DNA of 64,000 nucleotides from Cheilinus undulatus (taxonomy: Eukaryota; Chordata; Actinopteri; Labriformes; Labridae): positions 43,985,789 to 44,049,788 of the forward strand of contig NC_054869.1 of the NCBI RefSeq assembly GCF_018320785.1, written 5' to 3'. The translations under genes and the position numbers were made by a program. The notes under the pieces are model-generated. The model ran no database searches and was not told the DNA's origin. It was given only the letters and a program-made list of their open reading frames with translations. Below are positions 6,301-62,677 of this stretch, in pieces. Position 1 is the first letter of the stretch; each line of letters begins with the position of its first letter.

Positions 6301-9300
6301 GTCTCCAGGTGTCAAGCTCTTCATGGTGATGTGGTTTAAATGTGTGAAGAATTTTCTGTCGAGTTGGAGGTAAGAATAAATTTATACACAACGATGTCTC
6401 TGATGTGTGCTGAAACATCATTTTCAGCATTTGTGGGGTTTTTTTCTGAACTTTAGTGTTAACTAGGGCTGCAAGCAGCACTGAAGGGGCCTTTGCACCT
6501 TTGCGCACGTCGGATGGTGGTGCACGTGGGGTTGTGGCCTAGTTGGAAACAATAGCCAGCTGCAGTGATGTCTGTCTAAAAACTAAACTGTGAAGAGTTA
6601 AGTTTAATTTTGATGTTGAGTGACTGAAGAAAATCATGCATTGAGTATTGTTTACTACTAAGTTAAACTAGCCTGTTGCTTATGGGTATTAGAAGTGTAT
6701 ACCTGGTCGATGTCTTTTACAGTTATGTTTTAATCCTGAAAATCTTAGACTTGGGGCCTAACCCAGCTGCAGTTCTTTTTTGTTTTCAGTCACCATCAAG
6801 TGACATACATCATTAATTTAATCAGGAAACCTTAGACTTTCAGCCAAACTGTTTTAAAGCTCTTGGTGTCAGAGAAGATAAATTTGTCAAAACTTAAATA
6901 AAATAAATGGCAATAGACATTTTGTGTTTTTAACTCTGGACTGGGATCTAACTCAAGAAAGTTTGCTTTTTTTATTGAGAATTTTACATTTTTTTTAAAC
7001 TTCCATATACATTTTTGCTCAAATTTGAGTGCCCAATTAGCAAGTCACAATTCATCAAAATATTAATGTGACAAGCTAGGAATTTTTTCTCTGAAATGGG
7101 ATGTTTTCCTGTTTTTCATTTAATGACCATTTATAGGGGCTCAGCAGTGTCATATTCAATTAAAAAAAAAATCATCATATATTACCTTTTTTTTTTTTTA
7201 ACAACCTCCAAGTGTTCAGTCTTACAGTGTGCTTAGGTGTTGCTTCTGTAATGTAACTGCTGTGTATGAAAAAATATAATATTGTTTAAAAATTACTTTG
7301 TAGTCTTGTTGTCATCCTAAATCTGGTCAGACTGAGAGTGGCTGTGCCCACCAAAACTGCACCATTTGAATCAGAACTGTTGGAGAATGACATCACTCAC
7401 TCATTTCTGCCCCACTTACTCAATTATTTTGAGTAGAAAAGTAAAATCACTAATATATAATATATTTATAGTGTATGCTCAAATATATTAATGAAACATA
7501 TTTAAACATTTAAACCTATATGTATAATCTGTGTATTCGTGCATGTTTTCTTTGTCTGTAGATTCCAAAGTAACTCTCTGCTGCTTTCTAGAATATCCGA
7601 ATTTTAGTTTGTCCAAATTTACTATCAGGGCCCAGGTCTGACAGAAGTTTTGCAAATGTTCAAGTTGCTGTTGCAACACCTCCTTGGATAAAGTCAGCAA
7701 CATCAGATCATCTGCAAACAGGAGGTATATAATGTCCGAGTCAGTGGGGTTACACCAGGTATGTCTGGATGTTCCAGAGAATTAGCCGATCCATTGATGT
7801 AAATATTAAACAGGGTGGGGCTGAGACTGCAGGCCTCCTTCACCCCTTGACTTTGGGAGAAAAGGTCGGATTCCATTTCTCCAATTTTAACTGCACACTT
7901 CATATTAGTATACATAGTTTTAATAATGTACTCCTATGTAGAAGCAGAGTGGATATAACCACTCTGCTGTTGGGAAAGGTGAAGGAGGCCTTCTCCATCA
8001 ATCACTTCCCTCAGATCATTGGAGCCGAAGTGGATAATGATGTGGCTCAGGGATCCTAGACGCCTCTCTGTCAGAAGCTCCATGGTGTGCTGGGTGTTTG
8101 GACACCAGAGTTTTGACACTTTGTGAGAGGGAAAAGTTTTCCTTTCATCAATGAATCGTATTGGAAATCGATGAGAATGATGATTTCTGATTCCTCTCTC
8201 AGCTGTTGTGGTTTGGGGGGGTTGAGCGCTGGCGTTGACCTGAGGAATGGGTGGATAACCGGATGTTGAGTTGGTCTCTGGATTGGAGTGGTATGGAGTG
8301 AGGCTGTTGGGATGGTGAGTTCTGACTGCTTTCACAGATAATAACAGGATCCTGGATATCTGGATGTCAGTTCAGTTCTTTTAGCGCCTGTGGAGTGTTC
8401 TCTTTCTCCTCCACAGCCTGTCTCAGAGATAAATCTCCTCTCCTAAAGGTCACTTGCTCTGCTCTCAGTTCCTTTACCTCCTCTGTTAAAGTATTTAGTT
8501 CTCTTCTGAGGGTCTCTCTTGCTCCTTTCAGTTCCTTCGGCTCCTCTGCCAGAACTGTGGGTCTTGCTATGTTCTAGTCTTTCTCTTGCTTTATTTGTTT
8601 AATCTCAGTCTTCATGGTATTTAGTTCTTTGACCTCAATTCTGAGCATGCTCAGTTCTTTCATGAAACTGTCTCTCTCCTGTCTAAGGGTGTTAAGCTCT
8701 GTGGCAGCCAAAATTTGTGCTTTCTTGGTCTGCATTGTCTGCTTTCTTGGATATATTTTTGACTTTTCATTGTAAACTCTGCAGCATCCTTTTTTACTCT
8801 GTATTTTACTTCCTGAGACACCAGACAGAGCAATGCATTGAGTAAAGCCCAAAATCCTTGTAACAGCTTTTATTTCCATACACACAAATGCATTGGGAAC
8901 ACTGCACACTTTACTCCAACTCAAAATATGAAGAAACGTGAATCAAATTTGTTATTACTTAACAGAAGGGGAACATAGCTGTTTGAAATACAGCAGTGTC
9001 TCCATTATCCTTTACAAACTCAGACATTTACTGTATAAACTGTAAAATGCTTGAAGATTTAACTTTCCCTTGAATCACTTAACTAATATTAAGCTGTATA
9101 ACTTCTGTCTCTAAGAACTGCTTTACATCTGTTTTGCACAGAGTCGACTAACTTCTTCATGAACAGGTACTCTAGCCCTGGACGATTGTACTACGTTCCA
9201 CAGTTCCTGTGCACTTCTTGGTTTTGCCTGATAAACAGCATTTTTTATGTCACCCCACAAGCTTTCTATTAGATTAAGGTCCTGGGATTGGGCTGGCCTC

Positions 9301-11289
9301 TCCTTAACATTAATCTTGTTGGTCTGGAACCAAGATACTCCTGGCTTACTGGTGTTTGGGGTCATTGTCTTGTTGAAACACCCATTTCAAGGCATTTCCT
9401 CTTCAAAATAAAGCAACATGACCTCTTCAAGTATTTTTATATATTCAAACTGATCCATGATTCCAGGTATGTGATAAAAAGGCCCACCATTATAATATGA
9501 GGAACATCCCCACATCACGATGCTTGCACCAGCGTGCTTCACTGTCTTCAGTGTACTGTGGCTTGAATTCAGTGTTTGTGGGGTCATCTAGCCAACTCTT
9601 CAGCCTCTAGACCTAAAGAGAACTCTTTAGACCCCTAAAAACAGACAGTTTTTTATCACAATATGATTGATTTTCTGGATTGTACAGTTTCTTGCCTTTA
9701 ACACTGTTGAGCTGTGTGTTCAAGTGCCAGGAAGCCACTTAAAGCACTTAAACAGTTTGGCACACTGCTGAGGTCATAAAAGATCTTCTGTTTACGTGTC
9801 TATTTCTGTGTTCAATAACCTGATAAACAGGAAACTGAGATGAGCATAGGTGTCATGGTGTGAACAAAAGAGCTTCCTGGCCATGTTGTGGTTTAAATAT
9901 GTGAGGTATTTTTTGTCAAGTGGAAGATTAGATTAAATTTATACAAAAGAATGTCTCCGGTACAAACATAGTTTGTAGCATTTGTTTTATTTTTTTATTT
10001 ATTTATTATTTTTTACATGAACTTAAATGTTAATATTACTTCATATTTTCTCAGATCAGGGAGACTGTGATAACTTCTATCAGCCAAAGTGGACAGCACC
10101 AGAAACTGCTGAAAACAAAACACTTCAAACATCTGAAGCAGCTCATCCTGTCAAGGGGCCAACCAAACCAGGTGAAGGATCTGGAGGACTTCCTGATCAG
10201 CCAGAACTGGTATGTTTTTGGACCTCTTTCACCAACAGTTCTTAGGGAGAAAAGTGGTCTCGAGGCCAGAGAAGTAATTGTTTCAGCTTGTGTATGTGCC
10301 CGACTTCATCATAGTTGTAATTGGGGACTAGAGCAAAAATCTGGTACCAGTGTGACACTAGTGACATGGGTCTGATATCTATGGAGACTAAAACACGGCT
10401 TTGGGCACATCACCACTCCAATGTGCGCTGGGGGTCAGGTAGTGGGGAACAGCCATTAGGAATGAATCAGAAGTTTGTGCTTGGCAGCTCTGAATAGACC
10501 TCTACACTGCAGTTGTCATCAGAAAATTTCTACATTCATTGAATACAATCCCTGCACTTTACAAAAAATGTGATTTTTACCAGAGTTTAACCAATTGACC
10601 TGGCCTGGCAATGATCAATATCACAAATTACTCAGTCCTGCAGACCTCCTAGTGTTGTCTAGTCAGATGAAGGGACACAAGAGTCTTGAAGAGTCTTGTA
10701 CTAAGCTTAGAGGCTAGCTGAACCTCTTTAACATGTAAAAAAAAAAATCCTAATTTTTTTCACTAACCTGGTTTTGATTAAAATGGTGATGTACTATCAA
10801 CTGAACAAACCTTGTGAGGTGAGCAGTTCCCTTCATGAATGAGCCTGTGCTATGATGCAGCTCTTTAATGTTAGCCACAGTAGCTAGCTCCTTTTTGAGT
10901 TTCCTTTCCTCCATCTTTGTTATTATTTAATCCACATTTAAAGCACCGAACTGGTACAAAATGAAGTCTCTGCTCTGAGATCTGAAGTCTTTTTAACTGC
11001 TTCACAGTCAGGATGACGCAGACTCGCTTGCCCGCGAGTTCATGAGTCACCGAGAGCATCAGAGAGGGAAACTGACCATAATTGGCCAACCTTCACTGAG
11101 CTGTCTGAGGGTAAGCGAGGCTTTTAAAGCGCTTCCTCTGAGGCAGAGTGGAGCATTAACACATCATGATTACTTTACAGGTTCGTTGCATTTGTTTTTT
11201 TCAGCCTGCTTTACTCGTAACTGATTTTAAATCATCTTTTCTGTTTTTTTCAGGACTTTGTCAACATACAGAACGGGATTTCAGGGTGA
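337..11289 (+). CDS. kntc1: Kinetochore-associated protein 1 (ROD), C-terminal 393 residues in 13 exons
   Basis: KNTC1/ROD is the large scaffold of the ROD-ZW10-Zwilch complex. That complex sits on unattached kinetochores, recruits Mad1-Mad2 and, through Spindly, dynein, and so sustains the spindle checkpoint. Exons, all with GT-AG borders and matching phases: 337-392, 1330-1408, 1490-1614, 1728-1863, 1994-2089, 2186-2242, 3116-3170, 4422-4485, 4899-5028, 5125-5214, 10055-10209, 11008-11110, 11254-11289 (TGA). The joined length is 1182 nt, a whole number of codons. Recognisable stretches include LTFCHRTRALLCLVRLAD, LEALNIPYTVQSFLSSPKEG, LWKNHSHEP, LWNSLLQKLLGFNL, DLDLIGIANRY and LPAFALGTLLL, all matching what I recall of the vertebrate KNTC1 C terminus. 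The protein is normally about 2200 residues; the N-terminal beta-propeller and most of the alpha-solenoid lie upstream of the window. The first listed exon (DIGNYECVSNIEEDPDLM) and the last (DFVNIQNGISG) rest on splice signals and phase more than on remembered similarity. HCAR genes follow directly, as in mammals. Confidence 0.93.
485..530 (-). repeat. Tail fragment of a tRNA-derived SINE
   Basis: The stretch resembles the 3' tail of the SINE at 32811-32980 (AAAGGCATAAAAAG-like on the minus strand, shared TTTTTGG...CCTTTATTTGA on plus). Only the tail is recognisable; no A or B box remains. It lies in a kntc1 intron. Confidence 0.35.
2318..2706 (+). mobile_element. Tc1-like transposon 5' fragment
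   Basis: The sequence starts with a terminal repeat (TATTTACCCCCTTGGATG) and shares the inner TIR (AATCAGTCATGGTCAATAT) with the full element at 52888-54373, in opposite orientation. From about 2515 the + strand reads VPWSSVKSIIKKWKEYGKFA, the N-terminal helix-turn-helix of a Tc1 transposase, then stops and frameshifts. It lies in the kntc1 intron after the exon ending at 2242. Confidence 0.75.
2706..2930. mobile_element. Probable Tc1/mariner-derived 3' end fragment
   Basis: A stretch ending CAGCATCCCAACTTTTTTGG, preceded by TTTGTGAGATTCACAAATCA, resembles a very common fish transposon end. It directly abuts the Tc1 fragment upstream and has no coding capacity left. Family assignment is from memory of the motif only. 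Confidence 0.4.
5635..5795 (+). repeat. Dispersed repeat, copy 1 (second copy near 49720)
   Basis: The phrase GAAAATAAAGGTCCTTCC, then GTGCAAT.GTGGCA.T.TTGTAAA and CCTTTCAA.TAC, recurs at about 49730-49885 in the same orientation with moderate divergence. No coding potential; family unknown to me. Confidence 0.6.
6085..6465 (+). repeat. Unclassified ~370-bp repeat, copy 1
   Basis: Shared landmarks with 9655-10032 are GATTGATTTTCTGGATTGTA, TGATAAACAGGAAAC.AGAT, GTGGTTTAAAT.TGTGA and AATAAATTTATACA. Both copies lie in the same kntc1 intron in the same orientation and end near GAACTT.A.TGTTAA. The open frame across copy 1 on the minus strand is not conserved in copy 2, so it is not treated as a gene. 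Confidence 0.65.
7488..7915 (-). pseudogene. LINE reverse transcriptase fragment (broken)
   Basis: Minus-strand translation gives CAVKIGEMESDLFSQSQGVK, then CSLSPTLFNIYING, the usual QG.RQGCSLSP.LFNIYIN motif. After a frameshift comes IIYLLFADDLMLLTLS with the catalytic FADD (codons at 7707-7718), followed by QLEHLQNFCQTWALIVNLDK. Two frames and missing N-terminal domains make it inactive. The style is CR1/L2/jockey-like; the clade is not certain. Confidence 0.8.
7934..8924 (-). pseudogene. LINE ORF1 relic: coiled coil plus SGNH/esterase-like segment
   Basis: Upstream of the RT fragment on the same strand, 8574-8924 encodes a heptad-rich helix (ELNTLRQERDSFMKELSMLR, then EVKELNTMKTEIKQIKQEKD). 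The frame at 7934-8335 contains KLWCPNTQHTMELL and SHIIIHFGSNDLREV. The latter resembles the IIH.G.NDL block of SGNH-hydrolase domains found in ORF1 of some fish non-LTR elements. The RT begins abruptly after it, so the endonuclease and much of ORF2 are deleted. Assignment as one element is inferred from order and strand. Confidence 0.6.
9060..9598 (-). pseudogene. Tc1-like transposase C-terminal fragment
   Basis: The minus strand reads HAGASIVMWGCSSYYNGGPF, then IMDQFEYIKILEEVMLLYFE, a frameshift, then PGVSWFQTNKINVKERPAQS and QDLNLIESLWGDIKNAVYQA. This is the catalytic half of a Tc1 DD34E transposase, ending in the usual DLN.IE.LWG block. The D...PKH motif is eroded and the N-terminal HTH is absent. 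No TIRs were recognised. It is a different Tc1 family from 52888-54373. Confidence 0.82.
9655..10032 (+). repeat. Unclassified ~370-bp repeat, copy 2
   Basis: This is the direct-orientation partner of 6085-6465 and shares its landmarks (GATTGATTTTCTGGATTGTA near the start, TGATAAACAGGAAACTGAGA centrally). It ends just before the acceptor of the kntc1 exon at 10055. Confidence 0.65.
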
Positions 11290-11600
11290 AATTTTGCTCC
11301 GTCTGTCGCTTTATTTATGTCACTGTTTTGACTCAGATGCAACATTTGCACTTCATCATAAATCTTTCTCCTGTTTTTGTAATATTTAACCCAATACTTT
11401 ATATTCATTAGTTTTATTCTCTTTCTTCCTTGCTGGTTTATACATTTGTATATTGTATTTGATGCCTAACATGAAATAGAAGAAATACTTAGACAATAAA
11501 TGTCCCTCATTTAGAATTACTGTAATGTCAAAATATGTTTGGAAACAGTAACAACAGGTTTCCTTTTTTTGTCTTTGGTGAATATATATCAATAAATTTG
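11290..11600 (+). terminator. kntc1 3'UTR and candidate poly(A) signals
   Basis: Two AATAAA hexamers follow the kntc1 stop codon, at 11495-11500 and 11591-11596. Which is used cannot be decided from sequence. The first and its surroundings are retained in the duplicated, exon-less copy near 18775. Confidence 0.6.
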
Positions 11601-11707
11601 AATTTGTTAATAGTCTTATTCCTCTGCATTATTAGGAATAACATATGTTTCTTGATAGAATTTTGTTTTTTTATCTCAATTTTAAAATGGAACATTTTTC
11701 CACCTTG

Positions 11708-12237
11708 ACAACAGAGAGTATGACAGTGCTTGGTTGAAGTAGGTTAGACTGAATATAGAATCTGTATGTAGACTTGAAAGTCATTTAGGGCGACCCCTTA
11801 TTTACAGTGACGTCAAGCAGATAAAGGAAAAATGCATGATTAACAATAAAGAAATATATATATAGATATATCAAACATATTCTAAAGGTATAAGGTACAG
11901 TAAGACGATATAAAAGACATAATATAGATAAGATTGAGAACAACAAAGTCAGTTAAAACAGGTGCAATCAGAGGATAAGAAATTATGTAAAGGGTGTTTT
12001 ACCTCCTATTTTATTTAATTTTTGAAGTTTTAAATAGTAAGAAATTTTAGTTGTATTTCTACTGCAGTTGTAGACAGTAATGCAACATTTTTGGTTGCAG
12101 TCAGCCGCTGAAAACACCAAAGAAGAGTATGGTGGTTCAAAATATCTAAAAGCCAACTCAAGACCTACCTATTTAGTTTGGCTTCTAAATAATTTTATGT
12201 TATCCTATATTATCTATGTTTTTTTTTTCTGTCTATT
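11708..12237. other. Intergenic sequence, nothing recognised
   Basis: This AT-rich stretch between the kntc1 3'UTR and the next duplicated block has no partner in unit B, which carries 3.8 kb of unrelated sequence at this position. I see no gene or clear repeat. Confidence 0.5.
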
Positions 12238-12397
12238 TGATAGAGACATTATCGCCATGATATTAGTATTGTTAGTGCCTGTTTTTTCTCTTATCTTAAA
12301 CAGAGTATAGTATCGCCATGTGACCTCAGAATTTCTGTAGTTAATCACAGTTTCTGTGTAACTCAGTTTTTATACCTTCTTAAATCAGGGTTCTAGC

Positions 12398-13966
12398 CAA
12401 GGGCGTAGGAATGAGTTTAACATTGGGGGGCACACATATGGGAAACCTGACCAATCCGTAAATAGTTTGAGCAGAAATATGTCATAAATTAACTACACCG
12501 CAAAATATTCACAAAATGCTATGTGATCTTTTACTCTTTCTTCTTTTTTCAAATGTTTCTTGGAAAAATAGTGCTCTGCACACCTATATAAATGCATGTA
12601 TAATATCTGTATATATATGTTTTATGATCTTAAGATGTGGGCAAACCACCCAGAAAAACCACTTCTCCCTCTTCCCCTTGAACAAAATGGCTTGAGTCTT
12701 TAACCAAAGCATAATGATTATGATCTGTCAAGGTACAGCTCCTGAGCACAAAGGTGGCTCATTTTAAAACTAAACAGGAAAAAATCCACTTATGTGTCAC
12801 TATGGAGTAGCATTTCACCATATAAATGTGCAAAACACTAGTGGGGTGTTCTAGTGCAGCTGATAACCTAATCATAACCTAACCCAAACCTTATAGTACT
12901 GTGGAAATAATTATTGAAAATTGATCTTTAAAAAATCAACTAGACATCAGTCCTCACCTGTTCTCCTTTCTGAATCTATTATTATCAGTAATATGATTTT
13001 TAAACCTTACCTCACACCCTGAAGCTCCATCTGCCTCTCCTGTCTCTTCCCTGAATATATGACAGTTCTCTTGATAAAATTGTTTGTTTAAAAAGTATTA
13101 ATGGGCTAATACATATTTCACTAATCAGTTTAAGACCTCACCTGAGCTTCCTCAGTCTCTCCACCTTACATTGCTTCAACTGCCTCGCTATTCGGTATTC
13201 TCCTGATAAGACATTATTGTACATTATATCTAATATAATGTCATACTTATTGATAAATGGTTGAGTATGATCAGTGGGGCCGCCAGGATGACAATTGAAC
13301 GTACGCACAATAACCATTCCAGCGCATGAATGACACCTCTAGGACAAGAGCGCACCTACAAACAGGTGCACAGAGAGAGAGAGAGAAACTACCACTGCAA
13401 GTACTGCACCAAAACTTAGATTAACCACATGCAGCCAGAAAACTGCCCCTAAAAACATCAGACAGCTTTAAGATCAGCAAAGAGAAGAGCAAGAGTTACA
13501 AGAGAATTTCCACCACTTAGACGTAATAAAAAGCCAGAAGATAGAAGATTCAGAGGACAGGTGTATGCTACATGGGTCTCACATTTTATGAACATTGCTG
13601 TGCGTTTCCACTCTTACTATAGTTACTTCCAATGTTTTAAACTTGCGCCAGCTCATCCCTGGCAAGACAACGTAAAGAGTGATTTTGCATTAAAATGCTT
13701 GTGTTTTGTGTTGATGGTTTTGTTGGGTGTATTGTGAGGGTTTTATGTGGATAAAGGATTGTTTGTGTGGTGTTTATGTTGTGTTTTGCTTGCAGCGGTT
13801 CTGGCACCGTGAATTAGAGTGGGGAGGGCTTTGGTGACTCCGCAGGCTGTGCCATCCAACTGTTTGTGTGTTTATGTCAATAACCAGCACTGAAGGGACC
13901 ATACGGTAGTGGCATAATACTGATAAGGATGTGTCCCTAGCGTCCCTACCCAATTCTGTGCCCCTG
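12398..13966. mobile_element. Non-autonomous hAT-like element, 1569 bp, only in unit A
   Basis: The ends are CAAGGGCGTAG and (reverse complement of the other end) CAGGGGCACAG. They are flanked by an 8-bp target duplication, GTTCTAGC at 12390-12397 and GTTCTATC at 13967-13974 (7 of 8 match). Unit B has a single site at about 22974-22981 (GTTTCAGC) with continuous flanks, so the empty site is visible. No transposase frame was found. Confidence 0.85.
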
Positions 13967-14912
13967 GTTCTATCAGATCCTTAAAAAGTCTTTAATTGGA
14001 CTTTTGAATTTTAAGGACAAAATAGGTTGTAAATCATCTTTAGTTAGATTTTTTTATATTTATGGACATAAAAAGTCTTACATCTTAAATTGGACTTTTG
14101 ACATTTAAGGCCATAAAAAGTCTTTAACTATAATTTTGAGATTTAAGCGATAAAAAGTTTTTAAAAATGTCTTATATTTGACCTCTGAAATTTAAGGCCA
14201 TAAAAAGTCTTAAAGGTTTTAATAGTACTTTGATATTTAAGGATATAAAAAGTCTGTAAGAAAATTCTTGAATTGGACTTTTCACATATTAAGGATCAAA
14301 AAAAGTTGTAAAAAACTATTAGGTTAGATTTATATATATATATATATATATATTTAAGGCCATAAAAATCTTTTTAATTTTAAAATTTCTTGAAATTTAA
14401 GGCCATAAAAAGTCTTAAAGGTCTTAAATTAGGACTTTGATATTTAAGGAGGCCATTCAAAAAATTACATTGGACAGTATGAAATTTAAGGCCCTAAAAT
14501 GTGTTAAAAGTCTTTGATTGGACTTCTGAAAAAATAAGGCCTTAAAAAGTCTTAATTTGCGGTGAGTTCTTACATTTTTGAAGATACTTTGACTAAGATG
14601 GTCTTTATCCAATTTTCCTTTTCATTTGCCAACTTTTTATAATTTTAAACTTTCTCTTTGTTCATGTGCTGGCTGTGTGTTACATCTCTTTAGAGAGGAA
14701 TCTTCAATGTTATAAAGATAATACAAAAAATAATTTAAGGAAAGAAGAAATGAGTCAAGCCACAAAGAGAAGTCATCGCTAAAGACTGCTCCATAAAACA
14801 GCAGAAAAACAGTAGCAGCAACGTGATGACTGTACAGTAAATAATAAGTTCTCTGTCCATATGATCATACTCTCTCTGTCATGTCTGCATCTCTTCCCAT
14901 CTTTCTTGCCAC

Positions 14913-15060
14913 TTGTGTTTTAAGAAACAGTTTTGTTTTAGAACCAGTTGTGGTTTTAGAGCCAGTAATGCTGAAGTAATGTTTTTAGATGCAGTTGTGT
15001 TTTTAGACCCAGTTGTGTTTTTAGACCCAGTTGTGTTTTCAGAGCCAGGTGTTTTCAGAG
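14913..15060 (+). repeat. Short degenerate 18-bp minisatellite (ancestral-like array)
   Basis: About eight diverged units of the TTGTGTTTTTAGAACCAG type occur here (for example TTGTGTTTTTAGACCCAG twice in a row), with conserved flanks on both sides. The matching place in unit B is the 1.5-kb array at 23525-25043. Confidence 0.85.
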
Positions 15061-16320
15061 ACAATAGAAATCTCGCACTAACAAATAAGCATTTTGGTGT
15101 TTTATTAAAAAACTCTGCATGCACAATAGATCAATTCATAAGCACAGTCTATCGATAATTTAACAGCAATGACAAGACAAATCATCCGAAAAGCTGTTAA
15201 TCCACTCACTGATGTCTTTTACAAAAATGCATTATCTTCTGTTCATTTTATTCCTCATTTTTGTCAGAAAAAAAAAATCTACATGCAACAAAAACTAGTC
15301 TATGTAAAAACATAAGCTTAATATGGTTAATATTTTATAAATAAAGTTAAAAAGTCATGAAATGATACTTCAGATGAGCTTAAAAAAAGAAAAATGTAAA
15401 AATACGGTATTTTATTACTCAGTATAACTGAATACCAGTATTAGATTACTGAAAACTTAAGTCATCTTGCATTAGTAAAATTAAAATATGCATTTTAATG
15501 TGTCTGACAGAGTTGGCAAAAATCAAGATATGTATGAAAAAAACTTCAGAATGTGGAAAAACTGCTGAAATTTAATATCTGTTCCTGCACACAACTGCTA
15601 TTTCAGACCTCAACCAGACAAATTATTGAAATGAAAGGTCAAAATATATTTCTTTAGCACATTTAAAACAACCACAGCTGACCAAAGCTCTGTACAAGTT
15701 TGGATAAGACACACAAGGCATTAAAACACAATACAAAAGAATTTAAAAGCAATAATAAACAGTACAAATAAGAGCAGAAGATGTCAAAGCTTACTTATGT
15801 TGAAAGTGGGTTCAAACAGGTGAGTCTTAAGGAAGGACTTTGTTTTCAGTAGATGTTCTCAGAGCAGCCACCACCAACATTCGGTCACCTCTGCTTCCAA
15901 GCCTGTCTCTTATAACATCTAAGAGCATCTGATGTGTTACCTGCAGCGCTCTGACTGGTGCATGATGGTGCAACAACTCAGATAAGCATCGTGGGGCTGG
16001 GCCGTGCAATGTTTTAAAAACCAGAATCTTAAACTGGATCCTGATGCCATCAGGAAGCCAGAGAGCAAAACAAAAGTATAAAGTCATGTTCAGAATGTGT
16101 CTTGTCCCCTTTCTTATGAATCAGTGACCTTTATCCATCATGTTCTTTCTTGCTTATAGTTGAGGATGGGTGAGGCTTGGACCAGACTGGTCTGCATTCA
16201 TATCATAAAACCAGATTTAATGTGATAAATAATTTGAGATTTTGTGAAAATTGAAAATTGACATGTTGTCTTAAAGCTTTCATAAACAACAGACTTTATA
16301 ACACATTTTTCCTAGGTATA

Positions 16321-16864
16321 CAGTGCTTAACAAATTTATTAGACCACCTTTCTCTGAAACCATCCAGCATCATGAAGTGCTTTAATGCTGACTCTTTCAT
16401 TTTCAGTCAGCTCTCCACGTTTTACCATTTTGAACAGGAATGAGGAGTTTCAAACTGGATTCACCTTTTTACACCCAAATTTAAACCAGCTCACTGGGCT
16501 TCTCTGAGAAGTCAGAAATGAATCAAGCATAACATTCAACCACTAAAACTCATTTTTCTGTTCAGGAATGCAAGTAAATAACTATAATTTGACACATTAA
16601 TCAAGAAATAATTATGTGCTTTACTATTTTTTCAGGTTTTTGTAAATCAGTAAATTTGAAAATTCATGGATATCAATAATAATTATATTTTAGCATTAAA
16701 AATATAATTTGGGTTAAAGAGCTTCTACATATTGGTGTATTAACCATTGTAGAAACATAAAGAATGATTTTAGTTTTAACAGTTTTTACCAGTGCTGTTA
16801 ATTTAGGGCAACTGTGGCATAAACCTTACTTTGGGTGGTGGTCTAATAAATTTGTTAAGCACTG
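16321..16864. mobile_element. Tc1/mariner-type MITE, 544 bp, only in unit A
   Basis: Perfect 28-bp terminal inverted repeats begin CAGTGCTTAACAAATTTATT and lie at 16321-16348 and 16837-16864. TA duplications flank at 16319-16320 and 16865-16866. Unit B reads straight through the empty site (AGGTTTACATTCTTGACC near 25867). It sits 82 bp beyond the stop codon of hcar copy A, hence probably in its 3'UTR or just past it. No ORF. Confidence 0.9.
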
Positions 16865-16946
16865 TACATTCTTGACCCACTTTTGGGTCCCGACCCTCCA
16901 GCTGAGAGTCTCTCAGTTAAATGATACCTTGATGCGGTCTTTGTGA

Positions 16947-17921
16947 TCACAGCTGGCTGAGTGACTGGGAGCCTGTCTCTCGAGTTCTCCTCTCTGTACT
17001 CTCAAGTGTGTCTGCCTCTTGCAGATGGAGAGCTTTCCTGCAGATGTTCTTGAAAGCAGGGCTGGAGAAGTAGTAGACTATTGGATCCAGTGCGCTGTTG
17101 AGATAAGTCAGGCTGATGCTGATGTAAAAAGCCGTGGTCAGATCCTCCAGGGCTAGGCAGATGTCAGATCCTTGCAGGGTGCTGGATACTTCTCGGGTCT
17201 TGATCCAAATCAGAACCTGCACAATGTTGCTCGGGAAGAAGCAGATGAAAAAGAGGGCTGCAACCACGGTGATGAAGCACAGCGCCTTCTTAATCTTTGC
17301 ATGCTGGGCCAGCTGCCTGCCTCTCAGCTGGACAATAATGTGGACGGTGCAGTAGAGAATGACAACCAGAGGCATGAAGAAAGAGAAGATAAACTCAAAC
17401 TTATGCCAGGTGAGGTTGTGGTTGGGTACAGTGTTGATCAGGAAGCTCTCACAGTAGATGGTGTTGGTGTGTTTTAAGGTGAAAATATGCGCTGTCATGG
17501 AGATGGTGAGGAACCACAGTGCCAGAGCTCCACACATGGCTTTGGAGACACTCAGAGAGTTGATGGGGTGATGAGGGTGCACCACACGCATGTATCTATC
17601 CAAAGCGATGACCATCAAGAAGATAGTGCTGCCACTGCGGTTCATCGCCAGCAGGAAGAGGCAGACGTTGCAGAACGTGCCCCCAAACCTCCACTTGATC
17701 CCAGAACTGTAGTAGGCTGCCCTGAAAGGCAGAGCCATGAAGAGCAGAAAATCCGCCATGGCCAGGTTGAAGAGCAACACTGTGCTGCTTTTCCATGGCT
17801 TCAGGTGGAAGCAGAAGATCCACAGAGCCAATCCATTCCCTAAAACTCCCAAAACAAACTCAGTGGCCAGCAGAGGAGGGAGCACGCTGATCAGCAGAGT
17901 CCCGTTAAAGTTGCAGTGCAT
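16947..17921 (-). CDS. hcar1: Hydroxycarboxylic acid receptor (HCAR1-like), copy A
   Basis: Single-exon 324-residue class A GPCR of the HCAR family, Gi-coupled plasma-membrane receptors for lactate (HCAR1) or hydroxy and short-chain acids (HCAR2/3). Seen: glycosylation site N6-G-T; TM1 LGVLGNGLALWIFCFHLK; TM2 FNLAMADFLL; Cys84 and Cys157 for the TM3-ECL2 disulfide; LAMNR with Arg95, equal to the TM3 carboxylate-binding Arg of mammalian HCARs; D108-R109-Y110 followed by VVHPHH; TM6 CFFP; TM7 D279-P-I-V-Y283. LPFRAAYY in TM2/ECL1 and YCESF in ECL2 are closer to HCAR1 than HCAR2. The tail is short and rich in Ser, Thr and Arg. Position beside kntc1 matches the mammalian cluster. The related OXER1/GPR31 receptors are less likely given synteny. 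Ligand is unknown. Confidence 0.93.
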   Translation of the reverse strand: MHCNFNGTLLISVLPPLLATEFVLGVLGNGLALWIFCFHLKPWKSSTVLLFNLAMADFLLFMALPFRAAYYSSGIKWRFGGTFCNVCLFLLAMNRSGSTIFLMVIALDRYMRVVHPHHPINSLSVSKAMCGALALWFLTISMTAHIFTLKHTNTIYCESFLINTVPNHNLTWHKFEFIFSFFMPLVVILYCTVHIIVQLRGRQLAQHAKIKKALCFITVVAALFFICFFPSNIVQVLIWIKTREVSSTLQGSDICLALEDLTTAFYISISLTYLNSALDPIVYYFSSPAFKNICRKALHLQEADTLESTERRTRETGSQSLSQL

Positions 17922-18119
17922 GTTGGCGCTGACGTTGCTCCTTCAGCTGCAAAATTTCAAAAGAAACCCTTCGAGGAGTGTGTTATCTTAAAAAGGAAAC
18001 CAGCTGATTGTGGGGTTGTTTCCTTGAATTCTGGTTGGTTCTGCTTTTTCATGCACAAAGGTGTTAGTTGCTAATACAGAGCAGCTTACAGGAAATAAAC
18101 ATTACACACAGATGAGTAT

Positions 18120-18228
18120 GCAGGTGGCCTGGGATCACCTTTTGCCATCCCCCACTCTGTAGTTCCTGTTTATGACTCTATCCACTGTCCTATCTCTTAA
18201 ATAAAGGCAATAACCCTCAAAATAAATC
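18120..18228 (+). repeat. SINE tail fragment at the duplication junction
   Basis: ACTCTATCCACTGTCCTATC followed by TTAAATAAAGGCAA matches the 3' part of the tRNA-derived SINE at 32811-32980 in the opposite orientation. The tRNA-like head is missing. It lies between the end of unit A homology (18093) and the start of unit B (about 18270). Confidence 0.65.
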
Positions 18229-18591
18229 TCGGGGGGTGGGGTAATTAAAGCAATACAGGTGCTATTTTTTTTAACACCCAAGGATACAGTATACACAAAC
18301 CTGCTTTTGATTGAAATGGTGGTATCCTATCAATTGAATAAACCTCATTTAAAGTGCCAAAGGGGTACAAAATGATGAACCATTTGGGAGCCAAACAACC
18401 AGCTCTACTGAGCTGAGCCAATTGATCTGGATCTCTAAAAAGAGATGGACTGCCTGTCACAGCTAGTGAGGCTGGAGGTTGGTGAGATGTACATCGGCTG
18501 AGGAAACATGGGTAAGATTAGAGTTTAATGTGCTAAAACATGACAAAGCTTGTACTGAACTCAGCACTGGGGAAGCTGCAGTCGTCCATCC

Positions 18592-18998
18592 TTTATTATT
18601 GTCACTGTTTTGACTCAGATGCAACATTTGCACTTCATCATAAATCTTTCTCCTGTTTTTGTAATATTTAATCCAATACTTTGTATTCATTAGTTTTATT
18701 CTCTTTCTTCCTTGCTGGTTTATACATTTGTATATTGTATTTGATGACTAACATGAAATAGAAGAAATACTTAGAAAATAAATGTCCTTCATTTAGAATT
18801 ACTGTAATGTCAGAATATGTTTGGAAACAGTATCCACGGGTTTCCTTTTTCTGTCTTTGGTGAATATATATAAATACATTTGAATTTGTTAATAGTTTTA
18901 TTCATCTGCATTATGACAACTAACATATGTTTCTTGACCGAATTTTGTTTGTTTGTTTTTTATCTCAATTTGGAAAACTGAACTTTTTTCCACCTTTT
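18592..18998 (+). pseudogene. Duplicated kntc1 3'UTR without coding exons
   Basis: From GTCACTGTTTTGACTCAGAT onward this is nearly identical to 11319-11707, including the AATAAA near 18777. The final kntc1 coding exon just upstream in unit A is absent here. The breakpoint shows short similarity (TTTATTTATGTCACTG in A, TTTATTATTGTCACTG in B). It cannot encode protein. Confidence 0.85.
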
Positions 18999-19963
18999 CC
19001 CACTTTTTTTTTAATGTATTTAGTAAAATATAAATGTGGTATATGATATCTAGAAATATATACTTTACTCCTCTATTTTTTCTTTCAGGCTGTTCATGCT
19101 TTCCAAATAAAACTAGCTTATTTCTGCAAGTCAATGATATTTCTCTGTGTCTGAAGAGAGTCTTTAGCAGAAGTACTACCTTATTCTACCCAAGAGCCAT
19201 ATTGTCTTAAAATACTTTAGCGAGAGCCACATTCAGAAACTGGGGATGTAAGGAAGATCCATAGGTGAAATAAATGAAACAGTGAATTATTGGATTATTC
19301 TGTAATTAAATGGGATACAATAGGCCATGTAAAATGTCTATAGTGTTAGAGGAAAGGATATGTTACTAATAATGACCTTATATTTTTTGAGGTCTTAAAA
19401 TATTAGTTTGAGCTCTGAGATGCTTTTCAAAGAGCTGATGAATGACGGTTGGCTATTTGGGAATTTATATCTCACATTTGGGACATTTACTGTAGTTCTG
19501 TGGCTTAACATAAAAAGATGCTTTCTAATTTTTTCCCACTCATCATTGATGCTTTTAGCTAAAGGGGGAGGGGCCTCATATTGGTCTCTGTGCTGGATCT
19601 CAAAATGACTAAAACCGGCCCTGCCTCACACCTGCAGCTCTCTTAGACCACCCTGCCTTATTCTGTAGCTTTGGTTTCCTGTTTCTGCTCTTTTGATCCG
19701 TATTTATTATCAGCAGTACATTAAAGATCAAATAAAACACCCATGTTTGGACAAGTTTCACTAGATATTATGTTATCTCAGCATGTGACTCGTGTGTGCT
19801 AGGGTCGCTGATGACCGACCGCAACACTTAGATCATCAGTGATCATCATAAAATACCAGTGTGGGAGAGCAAGGGCAGAAAGTGACTGAAGAAACTTGTT
19901 AAAACAAGGAAATAAGAAGCTTCACTTTGAACACAAGACAGCACACCTCAATGAATGAGCATA

Positions 19964-21158
19964 GGGGAGACCGGGACGGTTGTAACACTTGCAATTGCTC
20001 CAATCAGGAACAAGTTAGGAAATCACCTGATTCACTCTGCACATGCTCAGTTTAGTCTTTAGTCCACATGTGAAGAAGTAGTGCCCTAAAGCAGACGCAG
20101 CAAAATTTGTGCAGGAAAACATAATTTTGAGGTATGAAAGTAATTTTTTTTGCTCACATTATTTTTGTGATTACATAGCCTGCTTTGTAGTTGTACTCAT
20201 CAAACGTATATCATTTTAATTATGTGTCTGTTTAGCTAGCTTTCATTCAGATTGTTTGTGGTAATGTTTTAGCTGTTAGCTGTAAGCCAAGCTAGCTGAT
20301 TGCTAATGCACCCAGGGACAGTTGTAACAAACTTGTGTGGGGTAAGTTGTAACATTTAAAAAATGTTACAACTTACAAAGCAAACAAACTATGTCCCAGG
20401 CTACAAAAGAAAACTCCAGGAAATAAAAAGGAGAAAACCCGAAACATTGGGCCACAGGAGACAGAGTCCTCTGATGATGATCATTTCTGTATTATCTGCA
20501 TGGAACACTTCAATAACTCAAATCCAAAAGAAGCCTGGGTTAAGTGCATGACATATAATCTGTGGGCCCATGACAGTTGCACTCCAGGAGTGCCATACGC
20601 CTGTCACCACTGTCTGACACTGACATCAACTAACAAACTAGGCGTATACAACCTCCTCCCCTGACTCACACACCCACACCTATGTTAAGTTGTTGAAGCC
20701 TAAATTTTAGTGTTAGACAAACACACACACTAATGTTTGATTGTTGAAGCTAGTGCACAGTTGCACCTTTTGTACAGTTTTATTATTACAAATGTTAAGA
20801 TGTTAGTGTAGTTTAAGTCCTGTACTTTACAGAACCAAAGCAATTTTGTATAAAAATTTTTGAACAAAAAGCTTTCAGTATCTTAAGTCATTTTCATGGT
20901 CCTTATTTCATAATGTTACATTTCACCCCAAGGTATGTTACAACTGACCCGAACTATGGGGTCAATTGTAACATTTCACTCCTTGCATTTGAGATTAAGT
21001 CATGCATTTTCTGTTTGTGTTGCACCGGAATTTTCTAGGCCATTTATTAGCAGACACTTGAAGCTAGTTTATATAGCAGTTTGAATACACTAGGTTAAAA
21101 GAGCTCAAAGTTAGAGATGGACATGTCAAAAATGTTACAGCTGTCCCCGGTCTCCCCC
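19964..21158 (+). mobile_element. Deleted pogo-like (Tc1/mariner superfamily) element, only in unit B
   Basis: The terminal inverted repeats are GGGGAGACCGGGACGGTTGT and, reading in from the other end, GGGGGAGACCGGGGACAGCT. TA duplications lie at 19962-19963 and 21159-21160. Inside, 20465-20663 encodes a Cys/His-rich tail (FCIICMEHFNNSNPKEAWVK, C..YNLWAHDSCTPG, CHHCL) ending in TGA. It resembles the PHD-like zinc finger at the C terminus of some fish pogo/DDE transposases. The DDE core is deleted. TTGTAAC or its complement recurs about eight times. Confidence 0.7.
20342..20376. repeat. 35-bp perfect palindrome within the pogo-like element
   Basis: GTAAGTTGTAACATTT is followed by three A bases and its exact reverse complement, giving a 16-bp stem. 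The arm carries the TTGTAAC motif also present in the terminal repeats, so it may be a subterminal transposase-binding site. Confidence 0.85.
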
Positions 21159-21159
21159 T

Positions 21160-22800
21160 ACTGAAGAGACGCACCACCAGCGGACTTCCTCTGCTCTATC
21201 TTATGCGCGTTCCTCTGTCGCGCGCATAAGACGGTAATACACGGATTAAAAGTAAATAAAATTTTTCATTTAGACTTGGCACCAAAAAGCCACAGGTGAC
21301 CGAGGAGCCATGTGCTGAGTATCCCTGCCTTATACAGTAAGCAGACAGTAACATAACGCTGTGGTGCATTCCTTGATTAATTTCGTCACTGTTTATAGTG
21401 GGGATGCTAAGCGTCAACACTATTGATATTCGCGTCGGCCATTTTGTTTTTCCGTATGTTTTTTGGACCCTATCTCCTCTCTCACTCTTTTAGCTATACT
21501 CATCATTCTAATATCATTCTATTCAGCTCTTTTAGGACATGGCGGCTATATCTTTTGTCATTCATAGCTTTAAGACTTTTTAAAATATTTAACTTTTTCT
21601 GCAAATTTTTTCCCATTCAAATGAGTGAGGCTTTTCTAAAAATGTGCACTTTTTTTCATCTCCTCATAACTTTGGCATTTCTTGGGCTGTTTTCACTGCT
21701 CTTCTATCAAACTCTTGAGCTTCTGGTGCTCTTTTCAGCTATTTGTAAAACTTTTTTTATACTATTCATACTTTTTTTTAACAATTTTGCTTTTTCTCAA
21801 ACTAACATAACATTATTACAGATGGGCCAGCTCTTTAAATCCTCTAGATCTGTTTCAACTTCTAAGGCATATAACTTCAGCTCACTTCCACATACAGACT
21901 TCGTTTTTGCTTAGCATAGACAAACTCTTCCGCTATTTAGGAATGATTCACATTATTGACATCTTTTACAGATTTCTTATAATCACTGATCAAACTTCAT
22001 GAATATTTGAGCTCTCTCAGATGTTCACAATGGGAGTAAATGAAGAGTCAGAGTGATGATGTCACACTTAGTAATATAAGCAGCGAAATGTAGCCACACA
22101 TCTCCTCTTGCTCACAAAAAAGATTTGAGGTCAAAAGGATCAACGGTTTTGGCACAGTGAGCTTCAAAGCGTGACCGGCACCCCTACAGCTGTTCATCTG
22201 CACTAATGTAAATTTCCACCTTGAGGTTCTCAGTGGGGGCTTTTGGAACCACTTTTTTAACTCACTCTTGAACCAAGATTTTTCGCTTCCCACACATAAA
22301 AAAATATATCACCGCGTTTAGCAACTTCTGCTGATTCTCATGATACCTTTGGTTTCTGCTAGGTTTCACAAGTACAGCTTAAATTGACTTTGTTTGAGTG
22401 CATGTACTGCCCTCTCAACCCAGTTTTCTGAGCTGTGTTTAACAGAAGCTTTCACAGGTGTGACTAATTAGCTTTTATGTCAGCTGTGACTGATTAGCTA
22501 TGATGTAATACAGGCTTTGATCATCATAGCAACCTGGGAGTCTTACAGACACATCACACATCAACACTCTCTTAAACGGTTACATACAAGTGGCTTTAAT
22601 TTTGTCGTTTTTAAAGAACTTATCTGAACAATATTATAAAACAATGTGCTTTAGTGTAAATCTTGAGACAAAATTCTAAATGGCCCTCTTTTTAAATGTT
22701 TGTTTGTTTGTTTTTTACATTTTTCACTAATCAGGTATTGCATATTCAGCTGAAATTGCATTTTTATCTAGCTACTGTATTTATTGTTAGGGGTTGTTAT
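21160..22800. other. Unit B-specific intergenic sequence, no gene supported
   Basis: This stretch has no counterpart in unit A. It contains a 163-codon open frame (21423-21914) that is T-rich and strongly hydrophobic without domains, and a GC-mixed stretch at 22020-22290. It may be part of an older non-autonomous transposon, but I did not find its ends. Confidence 0.4.
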
Positions 22801-23524
22801 TTGATAGAGACATTATCTGCATGATATTAGTATTGTTAGTGCCTGTTTTTTCTCTTTTCTTAAACAGAGTACAATATCACCATGTGACCTCAGAATTTCT
22901 GTAGTTAATCACAGTTAAACCTTTTAAAACAGTTTCTGTGTAACTCTCAGTTTTTATACATTCTTAAACCAGGGTTTCAGCAGATCCTTAAAAAGTCTTT
23001 AATTGGACTTTTGAAATTTAAGGACAAAATAAGTTGTAAATTGTCTTAAATTAGGACTTTGATATTTAAGGAGGACATCAAAAATTTACATCGTACAGTA
23101 ATTTAAGGCCCTAAAATGCGTAAAAAGTCTTTGATTGGACTTCTGAAAAAATAAGGCCTTAAAAAGTATTAATTTGTGGTGAATTCTTACATTTTTGAAG
23201 ATACTTTGACTAAGATGGTCTCTATCCAATTTTCATTTGCCAACTTTTTATAATTTGAAACTCTCTCTTTGTTCATGTGCTGCCTGTGTGTTACATCTCT
23301 TTAGAGAGGAATCTTCAATGTTATAGAGATAAAACGAAAATAATTTAAGGAAAGAAGAAATGAGCCCAGCCACAAAGAGGAGTCATCGCTAAAGACTGCT
23401 CCATAAAACAGCAGAAAAACAGCAGCAGCAACAAGATGACTGTACAGTAACGATTAAAAGTTCTCTATCCATATAATTATACTCTCTCTATCATGTCTGC
23501 ATCTCTTCCCATCTTTCTTGCCAG

Positions 23525-25043
23525 TTGTGTTTTTAGAACCAGTTGTGTTTTTAGAACAAGTTGTGTTTTTGGAACCAGTTGTGTTTTTAGAACCAGTTGT
23601 GTTTTTAGAACCAGTTGTGTTTTTAGAACAAGTTGTGTTTTTGGAACCAGTTGTGTTTTTAGAACCAGTTGTGTTTAAGAACAAGTTGTGTTTAAGAACC
23701 AGTTGTGTTTTTAGAACCAGTTGTGTTTTTGGAACCAGTTGTGTTTAAGAACCAGTTGTGTTTTTAGAACCAGTTGTGTTTTTAGAACAAGTTGTGTTTT
23801 TGGAACCAGTTGTGTTTTTAGAACCAGTTGTGTTTAAGAACAAGTTGTGTTTAAGAACCAGTTGTGTTTTTAGAACCAGTTGTGTTTTTAGAACCAGTTG
23901 TGTTTAAGAACCAGTTGTGTTTTTAGAACCAGTTGTGTTTTTGGAACCAGTTGTGTTTAAGAACCAGTTGTGTTTTTAGAACCAGTTGTGTTTTTAGAAC
24001 CAGTTGTGTTTAAGAACCAGTTGTGTTTTTGGAACCAGTTGTGTTTAAGAACCAGTTGTGTTTTTAGAACCAGTTGTGTTTTTGGAACCAGTTGTGTTTA
24101 AGAACCAGTTGTGTTTTTAGAACCAGTTGTGTTTTTAGAACCAGTTGTGTTTTTGGAACCAGTTGTGTTTAAGAACCTGTTGTGTTTTTAGAACCAGTTG
24201 TGTTTTTAGAACCAGTTGTGTTTAAGAACCAGCTGTGTTTTTAGAACCAGTTGTGTTTTTGGAACCAGTTGTGTTTAAGAACCTGTTGTGTTTTTAGAAC
24301 CAGTTGTGTTTTTAGAACCAGTTGTGTTTAAGAACCAGCTGTGTTTTTAGAACCAGTTGTGTTTTTAGAACCAGTTGTGTTTTTGGAACCAGTTGTGTTT
24401 AAGAACCTGTTGTGTTTTTAGAACCAGTTGTGTTTTTGGAACCAGTTGTGTTTAAGAACCTGTTGTGTTTTTAGAACCAGTTGTGTTTTTGGAACCAGTT
24501 GTGTTTTTAGAACCAGTTGTGTTTTTGGAACCAGTTGTGTTTAAGAACCTGTTGTGTTTTTGGAACCAGTTGTGTTTAAGAACCAGTTGTGTTTTTAGAA
24601 CCAGTTGTGTTTTTAGAACCAGTTGTGTTTTTGGAACCAGTTGTGTTTAAGAACCTGTTGTGTTTTTAGAACCAGTTGTGTTTTTGGAACCAGTTGTGTT
24701 TAAGAACCTGTTGTGTTTTTAGAACCAGTTGTGTTTTTGGAACCAGTTGTGTTTAAGAACCTGTTGTGTTTTTAGAACCAGTTGTGTTTTTAGAACCAGT
24801 TGTGTTTAAGAACCAGCTGTGTTTTTAGAACCAGTTGTGTTTTTGGAACCAGTTGTGTTTAAGAACCAGTTGTGTTTTTAGAACCAGTTGTGTTTTTAGA
24901 ACCAGTTGTGTTTTTGGAACCAGTTGTGTTTAAGAACCTGTTGTGTTTTTAGAACCAGTTGTGTTTTTGGAACCAGTTGTGTTTAAGAACCTGTTGTGTT
25001 TTTAGAACCAGTTGTGTTTTTGGAACCAGTTATATTTTTAGAG
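23525..25043 (+). repeat. Expanded 17/18-bp minisatellite with higher-order structure
   Basis: About 85 tandem units occur here: TTGTGTTTTTAGAACCAG (a), TTGTGTTTTTGGAACCAG (g), TTGTGTTTAAGAACCAG (s), TTGTGTTTAAGAACCTG (d), and an AACAAG variant (c). Early units run a-c-g-a; later ones repeat d-a-g as a 53-bp higher-order unit, clearest at 24640-25030. Frames stay open on both strands because the unit lacks stops in some phases. The predicted SCVFRT or GSKNTT peptides are by-products, not genes. Confidence 0.95.
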
Positions 25044-25952
25044 AAAATAGCAATCTTGAACAAACAGGCAGGCATTTTAGTTTTATTTAAAAACTCTGCA
25101 TGCACTATAGATCAATTCATAAGCACAGTGATATCAATAATTTAACACCCAAAACAAGACAAATCATCAAGATCATCAAGAAAAATCTAGTGTGGAAAAT
25201 CTGCTGAATTTAAAATCTGTTCCTGCACACAACTGCTAGTTGAGACCTCAATCCACACAAATGTTAACTTCAAATTGCTGAAATAAAAGTAAGGTCAAAA
25301 TGTATTTCTTTAGCACATTTAAAACAACCACAGCTTACCAAAGTTCTGTACAAGTTCAGCTTCAGACACACTAGGCATTAAAACACAATACGAAAGAATT
25401 TAAAAGCAATAATAAACAATACAAATAAGAGCAGAAAATGTCAAGATTTCAAAGCTAGTTTATATTGAAAGTGTGTTCAAACAGGTGAGTCTTAAGGAAG
25501 GACTTTGTTTTCAGTAGATATTCCCAGAGCAGCCACCACCAACACTCGGTCACCTCAGCTTTCAAGCCTGTAGAAGAATCTTAAACTGGATCCTGATACC
25601 ATCAGGAAGCCAGAGAGGAAAACAAAAGTATAAAGTCATGTTCAGAATGTGTCTTGTCCCTTTTCTTATGAATCAGTGACCTTTATCCATCATGTTCTTT
25701 CTTGCTTATAGTTGAGGATGTCTGAGGCTTGGACCAGACTGGTCTGCATTCATATCATAAAACCAGATTTAATGTGATAAATAATTTGAGATTTTGTGAA
25801 AATTGAAAATTGACATGTTGTCTTAAAGCTGCCGTACACTATAGACTTTATAACACATTTTTCCCAGGTTTACATTCTTGACCCACTTTTGGGTCCCGAC
25901 CCTCCAGCTGAGAGTCTCTCAGTTAAATGATACCTTGATGCGGTCTTTGTGA

Positions 25953-26927
25953 TCACAGCTGGCTGAGTGACTGGGAGCCCGTCTCCCGAGTTCTCCTCTC
26001 TGTACTCTCAACCGTGTACGCCTCTTGCAGGTGGAGAGCTTTCCTGCAGATGTTCTTGAAAGCAGGGCTGGAGAAGTAGTAGACTATTGGATCCAGTGCG
26101 CTGTTGAGATAAGTCAGGCTGATGCTGATGTAAAAAGCCGTGGTCAGATCCTCCATAGCTGGGCAGATGTCAGATCCTTGCAGGGTGCTGGATACTTCTC
26201 GGGTCTTGATCCAAATCAGAACCTGCACAATGTTGCTCGGGAAGAAGCAGATGAAGAAGAGGGCTGCGACCACGGTGATGAAGCACAGCGCCTTCTTAAT
26301 CTTTGCATGCTGGGCCAGCTGCCTGCCTCTCAGCTGGACAATAATGTGGACGGTGCAGTAGAGAATGACAACCAGAGGCATGAAGAAAGAGAAGATAAAC
26401 TCAAACTTATGCCAGGTGAGGTTGTGGTTGGGTACAGTGTTGATCAGGAAGCTCTCACAGTAGGTGGTGTTGGTGTGTTTTAAGGTGAAAATATGCGCTG
26501 TCATGGAGATGGTGAGGAACCACAGTGCCAGAGCTCCACACATGGCTTTGGAGACACTCAGAGAGTTGATGGGGTGATGAGGGTGCACCACACGCATGTA
26601 TCTATCCAAAGCGATGACCATCAAGAAGATAGTGCTGCCACTGCGGTTCATCGCCAGCAGGAAGAGGCAGACGTTGCAGAACGTGCCCCCAAACCTCCAC
26701 TTGATCCCAGAACTGTAGTAGGCTGCCCTGAAAGGCAGAGCCATGAAGAGCAGAAAATCCGCCATGGCCAGGTTGAAGAGCAACACTGTGCTGCTTTTCC
26801 ATGGCTTCAGGTGGAAGCAGAAGATCCACAGAGCCAATCCATTCCCTAAAACTCCCAAAACAAACTCAGTGGCCAGCAGAGGAGGGAGCACGCTGATCAG
26901 CAGAGTCCCGTTAAAGTTGCAGTGCAT
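25953..26927 (-). CDS. hcar1: Hydroxycarboxylic acid receptor (HCAR1-like), copy B
   Basis: A 324-residue intronless GPCR identical to copy A except at five positions: I155T, L256P, L258M, D304Y and L306V (A to B). All family marks are intact (Arg95 in TM3, DRY at 108-110, Cys84/Cys157, DPIVY in TM7), so both copies look functional. T155 creates an N153-T-T glycosylation sequon in extracellular loop 2, absent from copy A; L256P falls in the ECL3 region. The 5' flank is near-identical to copy A for about 70 bp. The 3' flank lacks the MITE found in A. Ligand and expression are not deducible. Confidence 0.93.
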   Translation of the reverse strand: MHCNFNGTLLISVLPPLLATEFVLGVLGNGLALWIFCFHLKPWKSSTVLLFNLAMADFLLFMALPFRAAYYSSGIKWRFGGTFCNVCLFLLAMNRSGSTIFLMVIALDRYMRVVHPHHPINSLSVSKAMCGALALWFLTISMTAHIFTLKHTNTTYCESFLINTVPNHNLTWHKFEFIFSFFMPLVVILYCTVHIIVQLRGRQLAQHAKIKKALCFITVVAALFFICFFPSNIVQVLIWIKTREVSSTLQGSDICPAMEDLTTAFYISISLTYLNSALDPIVYYFSSPAFKNICRKALHLQEAYTVESTERRTRETGSQSLSQL

Positions 26928-27131
26928 GTTGGCGCTGACGTTGCTCCTTCAGCTGCAAAGTTTCAAAAGAAACCCTTCAAGGAGCGTGTTATCTTAAAAA
27001 GGAAACCAGCTGATTGTGGGGTTGTTGTTGTTTTTTTTGTTTGTTTTTGTCTCCTTGAATTCTGGTTGGTTCTGCTTTTTCATGCACAAAGGTGTGAGCC
27101 GCTACTACAGAGCAGCTTACAGGAAGTAAAC

Positions 27132-28300: not shown

Positions 28301-28549
28301 AGCATCTTTACACACAGACCGTGGTGCTGCTGGTGGAGACGGATGCATATTTGTAAGGCATTTATTATTAACATGGCACGATCTTCAAGACATTAATTAA
28401 GGGACGCAGATGGCAGAGAACGTGGTGGTTGTGGCGAGTTAAGCCTGGCCTAGGGTGCTGTCCAGACAGGAAGTAGGGTTGCCACTACCAGCCACTGGTT
28501 GTGCTGTGAATGTCCCAAGGTCCCAAAAAACACCAGCGGTCTCCGCTAG

Positions 28550-36235: not shown

Positions 36236-36244
36236 AGCCTGTCA

Positions 36245-49260: not shown

Positions 49261-49279
49261 AATTGTGAGCTCAAAACTA

Positions 49280-62645: not shown

Positions 62646-62677
<32 letters not shown>

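Follow-up and report, generated by a model that had tools for sequence, protein, structure and literature searches.

Duplicated genes of the hydroxycarboxylic acid receptor (HCAR) family have been described in fish and in primates. In the portions of the sources drawn on here, the zebrafish genes hcar1a and hcar1b (gpr81-2 and gpr81-1) are given as two single-exon copies of possible tandem origin, with 93% identity (89% for the protein), sharing a conserved block with denr, ccdc62 and hip1ra (PMC7575005), and according to a review both copies are activated by lactate (PMC12844162). In apes, several independent lineage-specific duplications are reported for HCAR2/HCAR3 beside KNTC1, with protein identities of at least 95%, and the HCAR tree is reported, in the part of that study used here, as not consistent with gene conversion (PMC13237431). 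The locus analysed here lies in a window (the whole stretch of DNA under analysis) of 64000 bases with no N and 38% G+C, in which self-BLASTN and a more sensitive search found that about 7 to 9 kb, comprising the end of kntc1 and an hcar gene, are present as two adjacent, colinear copies on the same strand. The units, defined by their outermost matched positions, and the matched pairs are as follows.

10761-18100: unit A
18294-27131: unit B
10761-10812 and 18294-18345: matched pair, 44 of 52 bases identical (E 6e-9, more sensitive search)
10928-10964 and 18339-18375: weak matched pair, 37 bp (E 0.002, more sensitive search)
11309-11706 and 18591-18996, same strand: matched pair (E 3e-165, self-BLASTN of the window)
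12234-12392 and 22798-22976, same strand: matched pair (E 2e-53, self-BLASTN of the window)
13966-14087 and 22973-23095, same strand: matched pair (E 9e-27, self-BLASTN of the window)
14390-15064 and 23011-23684, same strand: matched pair (E 0, self-BLASTN of the window)
15060-15183 and 25043-25165: matched pair by local alignment (score reached by 0 of 300 shuffles)
15552-15906 and 25191-25571, same strand: matched pair (E 1e-120, self-BLASTN of the window)
16023-16322 and 25575-25874, same strand: matched pair (E 2e-136, self-BLASTN of the window)
16865-18100 and 25871-27131, same strand: matched pair (E 0, self-BLASTN of the window)

A real direct tandem duplication of the kntc1 tail together with hcar is favoured on this sequence evidence, with a probability of about 0.88. 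The duplicated segment would have begun in the kntc1 intron that precedes the penultimate exon and ended approximately 180-200 bp 5' of the start codon of hcar. An earlier, sequence-only reading of this DNA had claimed that an HCAR receptor was copied in tandem with the tail of kntc1, and the colinear same-strand blocks and two intact hcar open reading frames confirm it; the at least six blocks said to match in order and orientation were recovered by self-BLASTN, the more sensitive search and local alignment. The self-comparison of 10-28 kb which it had proposed yields same-strand pairs that follow one another in a single order, 10.7-18.1 kb against 18.3-27.1 kb. With regard to the outer limits of 10740..27131, the right end is exact and the left end falls about 20 bp to the left of the first matched base, while the described course of the segment from a late kntc1 intron to hcar holds, the left limit being in the intron before the penultimate exon and the right one just upstream of hcar. 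Between the blocks, A 11707-12233 and B 18997-22797 are without a clear counterpart (best local score reached by 29 of 100 shuffles, which here and elsewhere preserve base composition only). A tblastn search of the window for a third hcar copy or remnant returned, beyond the two genes, only chance matches (best other E 0.40).

To the left of the units kntc1 runs on the plus strand, as seen from Rod_C matches and from two frames out of three that align to human KNTC1 (PDB 7qpg chain R), the third giving no alignment. The parts of the gene needed here are these.

5125-5214, plus strand: kntc1 exon, fourth from the end, by splice sites, open phase and 7qpg_R alignment; outside the duplicated segment
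10055-10209, plus strand: kntc1 exon, third from the end, by splice sites, phase and 7qpg_R alignment; left of the duplicated segment
11008-11110, plus strand: penultimate kntc1 exon, by splice sites, phase and 7qpg_R alignment; not found in unit B
11254-11289, plus strand: last kntc1 exon with the stop (not found in unit B), delimited by splice acceptor, phase and stop only
10761-10964, plus strand: kntc1 intron part in unit A, of which 10761-10812 and (weakly) 10928-10964 are retained in unit B
18294-18375, plus strand: kntc1 intron remnant in unit B, two scraps, 52 bp and 37 bp long (more sensitive search)
11300-11706, plus strand: kntc1 3' UTR/downstream block in unit A, common with 18583-18996; 28 of 406 aligned sites differ
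18583-18996, plus strand: copied kntc1 3' UTR/downstream block in unit B (sensitive search and alignment)

The four tail exons have AG/GT borders and a single open phase, the last one comprising 12 codons including the stop, and translated together they align with residues 2350-2441 of 7qpg chain R (E 5.6e-10), the alignment reaching into the exon at 11008-11110. The last kntc1 exons went undetected when three frames of 5199-13000 were searched against PDB, which gave one chance match, to cornichon (E 0.26); the last two exons alone had no match in PDB. Because the tail exons are delimited, the left breakpoint can be placed in the intron 10210-11007.

It had also been claimed that unit B carries kntc1 intron and 3' UTR and no kntc1 exons, which is borne out, the intron part amounting to the two scraps, the second of them weak. 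When the penultimate exon was compared with unit B, its best local score was reached by 106 of 300 shuffles (18346-18600) and 49 of 300 (18346-22800), and that of the last exon against 18376-22800 by 211 of 300. The stretch of A which holds both exons (10965-11299) has no counterpart in B 18376-18582 (score reached by 227 of 300 shuffles). The DNA of all four exons gave a single match in 18101-28600, from the 10055 exon on the opposite strand (E 0.57), and none for the penultimate exon at E ≤1, and tblastn of the joined tail across the window matched the exons themselves only. Copy A would have retained the working end of kntc1, and the exons of unit B would have been lost by deletion. The kntc1 tail in unit B has neither promoter nor upstream exons and therefore presumably no function.

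The units were later altered by insertions, by change of minisatellite length and probably by gene conversion. Features found in one unit only, the minisatellite and the junction are listed below.

12397-13965: insertion in A only, hAT-like to judge from its ends, with flanks GGTTCTAG (12389-12396) and GGTTCTAT (13966-13973), alike at 7 of 8 bases; unit B has one site of this kind, GGTTTCAG at 22973-22980
16319-16866: Tc1/mariner-like insertion in A only, with no coding match, with 30-bp perfect inverted ends including TA on each side; the matching site of unit B has a single TA at 25871-25872
18997-22797: 3.8 kb segment in B only; none of its six frames exceeded the Pfam cut-off, and repeat-like ends near 19965 and 21155 were noticed by eye
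14909-15052: minisatellite of an 18-bp unit in unit A, 8.4 copies
23521-25042: the same 18-bp minisatellite in unit B, 85.9 copies, with a 53-bp higher-order period
18101-18293: junction DNA between the units, 193 bp with no clear match in unit A

The Tc1-like and, probably, hAT-like elements would be gains of unit A. The minisatellite of unit B is about ten times longer than that of unit A; such arrays are prone to errors of length in assemblies.

The end of unit A and the start of unit B are separated by 193 bp of other DNA, partly repeat-like, where a direct join would be expected of a fresh event. The segment 18143-18229 resembles 32894-32814 on the opposite strand (75%, E 3e-11), therefore a part of the junction is likely an interspersed repeat which landed near it, and a later insertion in 18101-18293 may hide the original join of unit end and unit start. 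The claim that the breakpoints can be read directly stands for the approximate limits given above, but not for a clean original breakpoint, which this junction does not show. Compared with the kntc1 introns, the junction scored no better than shuffles (222 of 300 reached the score for 10400-10760 and 58 of 100 for 5300-10760), and its comparison with the right flank 27132-28600 was borderline (7 of 300). Its tail-like motif has no second copy in the window within 3 mismatches, and a search for tRNA genes gave none.

The two receptor genes lie on the minus strand.

16947-17921, minus strand: hcar copy A, intact single-exon open reading frame, 324 aa
25953-26927, minus strand: hcar copy B, intact single-exon open reading frame, 324 aa, 319 of 324 residues identical to copy A
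17459-17953, minus strand: candidate tract for gene conversion, 495 identical bp made up of codons 1-154 and the 32 bp before the ATG

Copy A is a rhodopsin-family seven-transmembrane protein (Pfam 7tm_1, 129.9 bits); the Pfam scan was made on A, and B is assigned by its identity to it. Among the best 60 of 340 matches to solved chains, copy A scored 289.6 bits with HCAR2, 286.3 with HCAR3 and 250.4 with HCAR1, the next being P2Y1 with 126. Arg95 of copy A aligns, in an alignment counted by eye, with Arg111 of human HCAR2, which we take to be the arginine of TM3 for acid binding. Both copies most likely encode Gi-coupled hydroxycarboxylic acid receptors of nearly the same specificity, as far as can be predicted from sequence, and both would have stayed open after duplication; receptors of this family answer to lactate, butyrate and 3-hydroxy acids by way of Gi. 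They differ at 13 of 975 bases (98.7% identity) and 5 of 324 residues (98.5% protein identity), with dN 0.0067, dS 0.037 and a ratio of 0.18, based on 5 amino-acid and 8 silent changes only. The low ratio is consistent with selection on the receptors, and conversion would blur it. In the HCAR alignment residue 155 stands two positions ahead of Cys157, the equivalent of human Cys177, in extracellular loop 2, and residues 256 and 258 follow closely on Cys255, the equivalent of human Cys266, in extracellular loop 3. Residues 304 and 306 belong to the C-tail, outside the aligned part. By this alignment three of the five differences fall in these two loops, the other two in the C-tail.

The homology of the units ends 179 bp (A) and 204 bp (B) 5' of the hcar start codons, therefore the copies carry different upstream DNA and are possibly expressed differently. 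The putative ancestral upstream region would be with copy B, the right-hand copy keeping the old flank, and the new one with copy A. A bolder scheme, which we regard as rather improbable, is that the duplication cut provided the kntc1-side copy with a new upstream region and repeated conversion fixes the core, leaving chiefly extracellular loops 2 and 3 and the C-tail able to vary; the twins would then be alike in the core, with novel expression and adjusted access for the ligand.

The differences between the receptor genes are unevenly spread: codons 1-154 have none, and codons 155-324 have 8 silent and 5 amino-acid differences. In this second half the silent rate is neutral-like, and the noncoding rate predicts 10.8 silent differences for the identical tract, where none was observed. 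The pattern of silent sites suggests that later gene conversion homogenised the N-terminal half of both genes, and we consider this the probable cause of its identity. The longest run free of silent differences (17262-17954, 180 weighted sites) has P 0.00075 in 20000 permutations across nine aligned blocks, a test which presumes a roughly even silent rate, the blocks ranging from 0/80 to 18/122. A duplication with no conversion, in which constraint on codons 1-154 or a locally low mutation rate kept this half unchanged, is possible, albeit clearly less probable. It is helped by the modest P of 0.014 for the same run when the 20000 permutations are limited to 16023-18100, and by the blocks adjoining hcar (13/300, 0/80, 8/179), which are less diverged than the distant ones (5-15%). 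It is weakened by the silent sites being unchanged too, with 0 differences (weight 106) in codons 1-154 against 8 (weight 116) in the other half (Fisher P 0.007), by the similar GC3 of the two halves (0.71 and 0.68) and by the extension of the identical run 32 bp into the 5' flank. No difference occurs in the 107 bp from 16867 to 16973 either, which take in 80 bp of 3' flank and the final 27 bp of the gene, therefore low divergence extends beyond one tract, and a conversion of wider extent or greater age, or unevenness of the rates, may also be behind the low divergence near hcar.

The tandem duplication itself has to be weighed against an assembly artefact in which two haplotypes were set in tandem. 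The hcar genes alone, at 98.7% identity, could pass for alleles. Across five noncoding blocks lying away from hcar, the units are different at 123 of 1570 aligned sites (7.8%; per block 28/406, 8/159, 34/504, 18/122 and 35/379), a level seldom seen between alleles of one individual, several large indels separate the units, and unit B as an allele would be without the end of kntc1. Because the noncoding divergence exceeds the allelic expectation and a B allele would lose the kntc1 end, such an artefact is very unlikely. Two separate events, an hcar duplication and an independent copy of the kntc1 tail joined to it by chance, are hardly credible, since the blocks are colinear and on the same strand across the whole 7-9 kb and the divergence of the 3' UTR block (6.9%) is close to that of other noncoding blocks, even if the 52-bp intron match (8/52 differ) is more diverged than this block (28/406) and than most others. 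Neutral rates are a few 1e-9 per site and year, and as a rough guess the tandem duplication would be several to roughly fifteen million years old, an age judged, like ancestral state and indel directions, with no outgroup.

The source is probably a teleost, to judge from the gene pair and the Tc1-type elements. Traces of transposons lie around the units. Between two kntc1 exons, 2460-2579 (plus strand) holds a remnant of the DNA-binding part of a Sleeping-Beauty-type transposase (Pfam HTH_SB, E 1.2e-9, 38.2 bits, curated cut-off 43). Just right of unit B, 28008-28250 (plus strand) matches RVT_1 below cut-off (E 5.7e-5), and two segments, 27676-27837 and 28424-28545, are similar to 4363-4216 and 4144-4027 on the opposite strand (67-68%); a degenerate LINE is likely there. 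Of the 12 frames scanned for 27.0-45.5 kb two matched RVT_1, the stronger match having E 5.8e-9. The regions 28549-29135 and 35017-36238 form two similar same-strand pairs (87% and 80%); a second tandem duplication at 28549-36238 was considered and rejected, the RVT_1 matches in the 27.0-45.5 kb scan suggesting interspersed repeats. Within 45400-64000 one of 12 frames matches the Tc3-type transposase model HTH_Tnp_Tc3_2 (E 8.1e-10), and six-frame Pfam scans of 27-64 kb at E 0.01 recognised HTH_Tnp_Tc3_2 and RVT_1 only and no ordinary gene. Plus-strand frames of 9.9-19.3/20.5 kb gave no family. Matches to Mab-21 (E 0.016), DDE_3 (E 0.059) and an arenavirus nucleocapsid model (E 0.093) were below cut-off and were taken as chance or transposon debris. 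The Pfam scans covered the window except for about 22.9-27 kb on both strands and, on the minus strand, 1-8 kb and about 17.9-18.9 kb. Among viral contigs, none of nine pattern matches was confirmed as a relative.

Duplication of HCAR genes has occurred repeatedly in vertebrates, and the present one is an ordinary further case of an already known kind; it can be said that the locus, as one HCAR duplication with readable limits, makes a neat small case for the divergence of twin receptors and leaves the general view unchanged. As far as the portions of the cited papers used here allow a comparison, it resembles zebrafish hcar1a/hcar1b in its paired single-exon hcar copies (PMC7575005), and differs from them in protein identity (98.5%, 319 of 324 residues, against 89%), in its readable copy of the kntc1 tail and in that denr, ccdc62 and hip1ra of the zebrafish block were not seen in this window. 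With ape HCAR2/HCAR3, likewise taken from a part of the source (PMC13237431), it shares an HCAR duplication adjoining KNTC1, and it differs in the likely partial conversion tract and in belonging to another lineage, where the duplication would be an independent event.
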